From Candidatus Nealsoniibacteriota bacterium (GTDB lineage: Bacteria > Patescibacteriota > Minisyncoccia > Minisyncoccales > PWPS01), in the NCBI GenBank assembly GCA_003553505.1, contig PWEN01000042.1, forward strand, positions 1-62,876: 62,876 nt of DNA, given 5' to 3'. The notes beneath the pieces were generated by a model. It saw only the letters and a program-made list of their open reading frames with translations. It did not search any database and had not been told where the DNA came from. This document shows, piece by piece, positions 38,591 through 62,876 of this stretch. The position numbers were made by a program, and so were the translations under genes. The first letter of the stretch is position 1, and every line of letters starts with the position of its first letter.

Positions 38591-38791
38591 TTATTCTCGA
38601 TTTTCCCAATCTTCCTCGTTTTCTTCCATATCTCCTTCTTCCTCCTCCCCCACTTCTTCTTCAACTTCTTCTTCTACTACTCCTTCTTCAACTTCTTCTC
38701 CTGTTTCTTCTTTTTCTTGTTCTCTTGTCATATACCAAACCGCTATTCCAACGATGACAAGAATCAATACCAAAATTATTAAAGTATCCAT
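38591..38791 (-). CDS. Single-TM protein with extreme Glu-rich tail
   Basis: MDTLIILVLILVIVGIAVWYMTREQEKEETGEEVEEGVVEEEVEEEVGEEEEGDMEENEEDWENRE. Confidence 0.75.
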   Translation of the reverse strand: MDTLIILVLILVIVGIAVWYMTREQEKEETGEEVEEGVVEEEVEEEVGEEEEGDMEENEEDWENRE

Positions 38792-38834
38792 ATATCTTTT
38801 TTTGGTTTCTCGACCTTGAAGATTTTAAAGAGCT

Positions 38835-61343: not shown

Positions 61344-62132
61344 CTAGGGCTGTAGAACGCCCTCCGTTTCTCCGTTTACTGATATCTCTACACTATCAAT
61401 GCTGTCAAACTGAGTAAGAGTGTTTGTAATCTGATCTACTATTGCAGTAACCCACGCAGAACCTCCGGCAACGTCAAGCTCTTCACTGAAGTCCGCAAAA
61501 GCAACTCCATTCTCAATGTTTAGAGAGTTTAACTCTGTGCCCTCATCTATGGAGGTGGAGTACCCCTCCTCTTTCTCTTCTTCCGTAGGACCACTTAAAA
61601 GCTCTACAAGAGCTCTGTGCTCTACATCCGTCACATCTTCCAAGCTTCTTTCTACGGGAACAACATCTTCCATGCCATCTTCCACGATCATAAAGTAAAC
61701 ATTAAAAGAAGTAGTTACTTCCTCCTCTTCTTCCTCTATCATTTCGCCACTCATTTCATCAAAGACACCATCAGTTACTGCAGAAACAACCTCTCCATTC
61801 TCTACCGTAACTACGGTTGTATGAGGCGTTATCACTTGAGCCGTCATCTCTTCACTGCGATCTCCGTAACCCGCAGAATTGGACTCAAAGTCAAAAGTTA
61901 CTTCTACTACTCCTTCATCCACTTCCTCTGTTTTAGAGATCTCCAAATCTCTTCCATCATAAGTATAAGTAAGAGATTGGCTTTTCATCCACTCATCTGC
62001 GATGGCGGAAGCCTCATCAAGTGTAACCTCTCCATTCTCTTCCGGTACATCGGTATCCATTCTGGAAACAAAAACCCCTGCTACTACTACGACAAGAAGA
62101 ACAACTATAGCTATAATAATTTTTTTATCCAT
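61344..62132 (-). CDS. TM-anchored GerMN-domain protein
   Basis: N-terminal MDKKIIIAIVVLLVVVVAGVFV; GerMN: ALVELLSGPTEEEKEEGYSTSIDEGTELNSLNIENGVAFADFSEEL. Confidence 0.78.
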   Translation of the reverse strand: MDKKIIIAIVVLLVVVVAGVFVSRMDTDVPEENGEVTLDEASAIADEWMKSQSLTYTYDGRDLEISKTEEVDEGVVEVTFDFESNSAGYGDRSEEMTAQVITPHTTVVTVENGEVVSAVTDGVFDEMSGEMIEEEEEEVTTSFNVYFMIVEDGMEDVVPVERSLEDVTDVEHRALVELLSGPTEEEKEEGYSTSIDEGTELNSLNIENGVAFADFSEELDVAGGSAWVTAIVDQITNTLTQFDSIDSVEISVNGETEGVLQP

Positions 62133-62200
62133 AATTATTAACTTTACTTAGTACTCGACCTTTTTATTTTAAATTAGCACAAAAATTAGTAAAAAACAAT

Positions 62201-62230
62201 AAAGACCCTCCTTGCAAAGAGAGTCTTTAT
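62201..62230. terminator. Terminator hairpin
   Basis: AAAGACcCTC..GAGaGTCTTTATTT. Confidence 0.7.
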
Positions 62231-62240
62231 TTATGAGCAA

Positions 62241-62399
62241 TTAAGGCTCTATAGGATCATCTATGGGATCATCCGCAGATGGCGGCTCTTCTATCTCCAC
62301 ATCTTCCGGAGAAGGTGTAGACATAACAAATATTAGTGCGGCAAGCCCTATCACAACTGCACCAATAACCACCGCAATAAGTATCCTTTTTATGTCCAT
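62241..62399 (-). CDS. 52-aa single-TM acidic/proline-rich microprotein (not in the ORF track)
   Basis: Translated by hand: MDIKRILIAVVIGAVVIGLAALIFVMSTPSPEDVEIEEPPSADDPIDDPIEP*. Confidence 0.75.
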   Translation of the reverse strand: MDIKRILIAVVIGAVVIGLAALIFVMSTPSPEDVEIEEPPSADDPIDDPIEP

Positions 62400-62463
62400 G
62401 CTTTAAAAGATTGATTAAAATCTAATCGACCTTTTGTACATAATAACACAATAAGAGATAAAC

Positions 62464-62500
62464 AAAAACCCCTCTCTTTTATGCCTGAGAAGGGTTTTCA
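62464..62500. terminator. Terminator hairpin
   Basis: AAAACCCCTCTC..TGAGAAGGGTTTT. Confidence 0.7.
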
Positions 62501-62507
62501 TGAAAAA

Positions 62508-62729
62508 CTAGTCTACCAGCTCCTCGTCTTCCTCATCCTCATCTTCATCTTCGTCTTCATCATCTTCGCCGTTTTCATCTTCGTCTTCATCATCTTCGCC
62601 GTTTTCATCCAAGACATCGTTCTCTCCATTTATAAGCTCAACATCTTCTGTCATCATGGAGTAAGCCATAACGCCTCCCACGATAACAAGAATGATGATT
62701 ATGGCGATAATTATGTTTTTTGTATCCAT
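62508..62729 (-). CDS. Single-TM protein with extreme Asp/Glu tail
   Basis: MDTKNIIIAIIIILVIVGGVMAYSMMTEDVELINGENDVLDENGEDDEDEDENGEDDEDEDEDEDEEDEELVD. Confidence 0.78.
   Translation of the reverse strand: MDTKNIIIAIIIILVIVGGVMAYSMMTEDVELINGENDVLDENGEDDEDEDENGEDDEDEDEDEDEEDEELVD
62551..62610. repeat. 30-bp tandem duplication inside the acidic-tail coding sequence
   Basis: tcgtcttcatcatcttcgccgttttcatc[t/c] at 62551-62580 and 62581-62610 (29/30 identical). Confidence 0.9.
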
Positions 62730-62788
62730 TACATTAAATTCAAGGACTTTTAATTTCGACCTTTTTTCCAAACTTACTTACAGAATAA

Positions 62789-62824
62789 TAAAAACCTCCT
62801 TTTATGTAAAGAGGAGGCTTTTAT
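62789..62824. terminator. Terminator hairpin
   Basis: AAAAACCTCCTTTTatgtAAAGAGGAGGCTTTTA. Confidence 0.75.
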
Positions 62825-62833
62825 TTAGTCGCT

Positions 62834-62876
62834 TTAGTACTCCAATTCTATATCCAGATCACTGTCGTCATTTAGC
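62834..62876 (-). CDS. C-terminus of a further acidic-tail protein, truncated by the window edge
   Basis: Minus-strand in-frame ...LNDDSDLDIELEY* followed by a terminator hairpin. Confidence 0.55.
   Translation of the reverse strand, partial: LNDDSDLDIELEY

Follow-up and report, generated by a model that had tools for sequence, protein, structure and literature searches.

A sense-strand leader element ahead of khpA and unrelated genes in Nealsonbacteria and related Parcubacteria, with KhpA as a candidate reader

Introduction

Regulation by CsrA/RsmA depends on a short sense-strand leader motif carried by unrelated genes, and autoregulation of the reader is typical of such systems. CsrA sites are GGA sequences in hairpin loops that overlap the Shine-Dalgarno (SD) sequence. 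The cold box of Escherichia coli cspA is likewise short and conserved, and lies close to the 5′ end of several mRNAs with long AU-rich leaders. KhpA has been described as an RNA-binding protein (e.g. PMC6403258). Individual CPR genomes, among them those of Campbellbacteria and Wolfebacteria, are reported to have lost the CCUCC anti-SD sequence (PMC10783764).

The findings below bear on how start sites are chosen and translation is regulated in Patescibacteria that lack an anti-SD, almost none of which can be cultured. The analysis starts from a contig of 62,876 nucleotides, referred to as the window, from a draft genome of Candidatus Nealsonbacteria (810 kb, 68% complete), about half of which was read as sampled stretches. 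A search of the open-licence literature returned nothing relevant on a khpA leader motif, on CPR leader motifs, on Nealsonbacteria small proteins or on the 8-mer described below.

Results and Discussion

The gene array in the window

The original prediction placed a tandem array of small acidic membrane proteins with a common upstream motif at the end of the window. Four exact copies of AAGGTCGA are present, all on the minus strand, and the window holds no further copy. The copies and the associated features are as follows.

38591–38791, minus strand: ORF for a 66-residue acidic microprotein with a single transmembrane (TM) segment, the unlinked copy
38810–38817, minus strand: leader motif AAGGTCGA of the unlinked microprotein, ATG 18 nt on
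61344–62132, minus strand: 262-residue protein (net charge about −54) with a TM segment at the N terminus and a Germane (GerMN) domain at the C terminus
62155–62162, minus strand: leader motif AAGGTCGA of the GerMN gene, ATG 22 nt on, with a TAAAAT −10-like hexamer just upstream
62198–62231, minus strand: terminator-like hairpin 3′ of the 52-residue gene (hairpin scan)
62241–62399, minus strand: ORF for a 52-residue single-TM microprotein with an acidic tail
62426–62433, minus strand: leader motif AAGGTCGA of the 52-residue microprotein, ATG 26 nt on
62508–62729, minus strand: ORF for a 73-residue single-TM microprotein, 45% Asp/Glu
62756–62763, minus strand: leader motif AAGGTCGA of the 73-residue microprotein, ATG 26 nt on
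62795–62814, minus strand: terminator-like hairpin 3′ of the truncated fourth gene (hairpin scan)
62834–62875, minus strand: 3′ end of the fourth array gene (...LNDDSDLDIELEY*), truncated by the contig end

The predicted gaps between motif and ATG (22, 26 and 26 nt in the array, 18 nt for the unlinked copy) were confirmed, and the three complete array ORFs are real. All are acidic and one contains a GerMN domain, with a match of the 262-residue protein to the Germane profile PF10646 at 83.9 bits against a cut-off of 23 (E 1.7e-23). A Pfam search with the 52- and 73-residue microproteins gave no match above cut-off. The 262-, 52-, 73- and 66-residue proteins all have a pI of ∼4.05. The hairpin terminators that had been proposed between the genes are partially supported, as the scan recovered two of them (62231–62198 and 62814–62795). 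With the terminator-like hairpin that follows the 52-residue gene, the array genes appear to be transcribed separately.

A second contig of the same genome (C1) opens with the motif and MDIKRIII and, divergently, with an ATPase gene, which occupies the corresponding place next to the array in relatives. Judging from this synteny, the window very probably runs on into C1 after base 62876, which would make the truncated ORF one more member of the array. Five relatives from this family have the cluster in the order of a divergent ATPase, the motif with an MDTKK acidic microprotein, and one or two N-terminal TM proteins of the GerMN type, the second of which often has its own motif. Further genes in most of the five are endonuclease IV, a protein of ∼100 residues and a PAS histidine kinase, with UvrD where this part was read, and the same genes lie downstream of the array in the window. 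The pairing of the motif with an acidic TM ORF is kept in relatives, in agreement with the original prediction, and the window array, a conserved cluster of the ATPase with acidic TM microproteins, GerMN and nfo, would be one part of a wider regulon.

Position, strand and gene set of the motif

The number of AAGGTCGA copies in the window is unremarkable (4 versus 1.8 expected; 12 of 100 shuffles reach 4). Exact counts per genome also show no overall enrichment (27 versus 37 for the reversed control), since most copies are coding and only position separates them. As copy number is not significant, the case rests on position before starts. In the sampled half of the genome, 11 of 51 copies of AAGGTCG lie 20–52 nt before a start (p ∼5e-10), compared to a mean of 0.56 over 420 permuted 7-mers and 1 of 51 in antisense, and AAAGGTCG is the most enriched of all 8-mers in the leaders of this genome.

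Inspection of all 27 AAGGTCGA sites in the genome placed about ten in sense-strand leaders and most others inside genes. The genes behind them encode KhpA, a DUF4352 TM protein, a T4SS-pilin-like protein, an EF-Tu-domain-like protein, acidic single-TM microproteins, GerMN and others. With the last base freed (AAGGTCG), GroES, Hsp20 and a DUF5320 protein are added. Occurrences of AAGGTCG in tRNA variable loops were treated as chance.

In the genomes of 30 relatives, the pattern TATAATN{3,20}AAGGTCGA has ∼55 matches, versus ∼5 for the reversed control, and its antisense version has 8, which is background. The spacing from TATAAT to the motif is held to 3–20 nt; 21–50 nt is at background. These strand and spacing controls indicate that the motif is directional and that, in leaders with a visible −10, it falls within the first dozen or so transcript bases. 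The motif therefore stands as a non-random leader element near the mRNA 5′ end, where the original prediction had put it. The distance from motif to ATG has a median of 28.5 nt (interquartile range 24–34).

The gene set, which was drawn from draft genomes using a simple ORF finder, includes in relatives HU, KhpA, GreA, SWIB, prepilins, T4SS pilins, SPFH, LemA, MscS-like and SDR proteins, as well as DoxX, camelysin-like surface proteins and very acidic soluble proteins of 40–50 residues. Some of the same classes (MscS-like, prepilin, T4SS-pilin-like and SDR) carry the motif far outside the order of this genome. Enrichment is strong in the order and weaker in the class, where the excess is modest and several matches are khpA itself; a phylum-wide scan found no motif excess outside the class. 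In one relative (G023), AAGGTCGA is outside the top-ranked 8-mers, so the regulon is not equally large in all genomes.

A family of soluble, very acidic proteins with 40–106 residues, several of them rich in Asp and Trp, was also seen behind the motif (L104, L105, L108, L084, L112, L035). In some of their leaders, a GACCT sequence could pair with AGGTC of the motif.

The leaders of khpA

A search with the KhpA of this genome returned relatives named Nealson-, Staskawicz-, Wolfe-, Harrison-, Jorgensen-, Azam- and other Parcubacteria, which also assigns the window to Candidatus Nealsonbacteria. AAAGGTCG precedes khpA in 64 of 79 Parcubacteria loci, compared to none in antisense, and the next unrelated 8-mer reaches 11. 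The last motif position is free in these leaders (A 31, C 19, G 12, T 4). At nine loci, the motif is found inside the last rpsP codons or at most 11 nt past the rpsP stop. A −10-like hexamer accompanies one of these nine copies (random expectation 14%), versus 27 of 55 at the other khpA loci. As the copies at the rpsP boundary mostly have no −10, the motif follows the khpA start codon rather than a promoter, which argues that it works in RNA.

The khpA gene is not alone in this respect. In an even sample of the class, the GGTCG/GTCGA core is present in 18 of 21 khpA, 9 of 21 HU and 6 of 26 groES leaders, with 0–3 in antisense and reversed controls. By the exact 7-mer, HU leaders (9–10 of 21–23 in the class sample) have about the same rate as khpA. 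Since the two are equal by this measure, khpA is not unique, and the KhpA reading is a lead rather than a proof. KhpA is present in all 55 class genomes, including lineages with few motif genes, so co-occurrence is uninformative on a link between KhpA and the motif.

Stems that enclose the motif score at least 13 in 39% of khpA leaders, compared to 15% of shuffles. In part of the leaders the stem closes right after the motif, and the pairs vary by lineage (GTAGC/GCTAC, GGGTAG/CTACCC, CCAGTCTT/AAGACTGG, GCAG/CTGC). Most khpA leaders lack such a stem, as do the microprotein leaders inspected. The stems lend support to an RNA element, but a universal hairpin around the motif was rejected for most leaders. 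Rfam searches of the window returned only rRNA and tRNA, placing the motif in no known cis-regulatory family. Searches of seven khpA loci gave only rRNA and tRNA above threshold, with a sub-threshold L20_leader 3′ of the khpA start (L191).

Translation context and alternative readings

None of 62 motif leaders contains an SD sequence, and the spacer between motif and ATG is 52% A and 31% T. The CCUCC anti-SD is missing from every 16S 3′ tail listed for the order (GGATCATTTCTA..., GGATCATTAAATTT..., GGATCACTACATTT...; including L113, L114, L118 and L073), and CCTCA is kept in the tails of a few families. This order-wide lack of CCUCC is a broader picture than the single CPR genomes reported. 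In this genome, which is 68% complete, no 16S gene was found. Because the motif leaders have no SD and the 16S tails no CCUCC, an element that substitutes for the SD is worth considering.

The 30S subunit or a ribosomal protein might accordingly recognize AAAGGUCG in highly expressed mRNAs, where it would serve as a standby or enhancer site. Such recruitment would suit the SD-less setting, the fairly constant distance between motif and AUG, and a gene set that looks like abundant proteins (HU, GroES, pilins). However, only a few percent of genes carry the motif. AAGGTCGA is also no SD site in the usual sense, being neither complementary to the 16S tail nor within 5–12 nt of the start (median 28.5 nt), and 20–34 nt from the AUG is too distant for an SD-type contact. 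No complement to the motif is conserved in 16S, the 3′ part of 23S, or 5S; the one at 16S h42 is variable, reading TCGACCT in one genome and CCGACCT in another. We regard ribosome recruitment as unlikely, with more in its favor than the explanations that follow.

A conserved small RNA containing UCGACCUU could instead pair with the leaders, as would fit a motif that is short, directional, near the 5′ end and common to unrelated mRNAs. None of the 27 AAGGTCGA sites in the genome, however, looks like an intergenic antisense site in a setting typical of a small RNA, in a search of a 68% complete genome that a shorter or imperfect match would escape. Intergenic copies of AAGGTCG in four genomes are leader sites, parts of tRNAs or unassigned, with no recurrent antisense partner. 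A small-RNA target is therefore improbable.

The position of the motif 3–20 nt after TATAAT in the order would also be compatible with a DNA operator of a transcription factor or with an initially transcribed promoter element. The motif is strictly one-stranded and asymmetric, however, its spacing to the −10 is spread evenly over 5–20 nt, and the nine copies at the rpsP/khpA boundary mostly have no −10, all of which makes action at the DNA level very improbable.

The idea of the original prediction that the motif marks a regulon of acidic surface microproteins is extremely improbable, and in its exclusive form refuted: all four window copies do precede N-terminal TM acidic ORFs, in a cluster conserved in the family, but most motif genes beyond the cluster are not acidic microproteins, and the motif lies at a similar distance before khpA, groES, hsp20, HU, greA, SWIB, prepilins and other unrelated genes, the very outcome that the prediction itself had named as counting against it.

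Several observations on ribosomal RNA genes and on other leader sequences were made alongside. The window starts inside a 23S rRNA gene, which is followed by 5S (1–1070). In most members of the order, a conserved TGTCGACTGGA.TTGA-like block lies just 3′ of the 16S tail (L113, L114) and is possibly an rRNA processing element. The 16S rRNA gene of G023 holds a group I intron close to its 3′ end (L073 13905–14347, 15244–16651). In G023 (L059–L074) and G107 (L153–L163), AGGAGG-type sequences peak 10–15 nt before starts (51 of 189 and 26 of 240 genes, respectively; controls 3–4) despite 16S tails that lack CCUCC; some of the genes concerned may be recently acquired. Many G023 leaders (e.g. L062, L064, L071 and L074) also contain TTCTTTGAAAA or GTACTTTGAAAA ∼25–45 nt before the start, which resemble rrn boxA antitermination sites, here ahead of protein genes.

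Proposed mechanism

The motif, its position, strand and gene set, its placement inside operons and the absence of an SD are features of the sequences themselves, and from them AAAGGTCG(A) is very likely an RNA-level leader element of a regulon. The element would sit in the 5′ leaders of a set of Parcubacteria (GTDB Paceibacteria) mRNAs that are for the most part short and often monocistronic, and it is best developed in the Nealsonbacteria order. A typical leader would have the element near the mRNA 5′ end, an A/U-rich spacer of ∼24–34 nt and an AUG with no SD, and the element would be read on the sense strand only.

Its binding, its reader and the effect are inferred. In the most likely mechanism, an RNA-binding regulator would bind the GGUCG core and so set the translation or stability of the leader mRNAs, which may mean repression, activation or stabilization. 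KhpA, a KH-domain protein, is the leading candidate, favored on account of its own leader, in which the element is most widespread and sits inside a supported stem in about one third of cases. Such a leader would be expected of an autoregulated RNA-binding protein. We put KhpA forward tentatively as the reader, autoregulation included, and consider this assignment somewhat less probable than not. For the statement as a whole, that AAAGGTCG(A) is a cis-acting leader element read by a regulator with KhpA as the leading candidate, the chances appear about even. Put more generally, a class of bacteria without the anti-SD could use a AAAGGUCG leader element, read by KhpA or directly by the ribosome, as a dedicated means to control or drive the translation of a defined group of stress, envelope and nucleoid mRNAs, a possibility to which we give slightly under an even chance.

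The outcome is a short, concrete sequence, a list of genes and KhpA as candidate reader, all of them open to tests in vitro or in a heterologous host. Across tens of thousands of draft genomes, the motif could serve to mark start codons and regulons, and the little-studied KhpA family gains a possible specific target.

Comparison with known systems

The link to the KhpA/KhpB (EloR/Jag) system is the presence of the element in the khpA leader (64 of 79 loci). CsrA/RsmA regulons are similar in having a short sense-strand motif in the 5′ leaders of unrelated genes. In contrast to CsrA sites, the present core is AAAGGUCG, located 20–34 nt upstream in leaders that have no SD. The SD/anti-SD pair is also based on a recurrent purine-rich motif upstream of start codons, whereas the present motif is too far from the AUG, is found on a minority of genes and occurs together with listed 16S tails that lack CCUCC. 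The cold box of cspA differs in sequence and is not known to keep a fixed distance to the AUG.

Resemblance to the CIRCE/HrcA operator was seen at groES. In CIRCE-like inverted repeats before this gene, GGTC, GGTCG or GTCGA is often found between the arms (L257, L259, L261, L263, L264, L278), and the two elements are alike in the several class members where the CIRCE-like loop holds GGTC or GGTCG. Unlike CIRCE, the present element precedes many genes that have no CIRCE arms and is read on one strand only. A leader motif common to the members of a post-transcriptional regulon is of a known kind, and it is the motif itself, the lineage and the SD-less setting that appear to be new.
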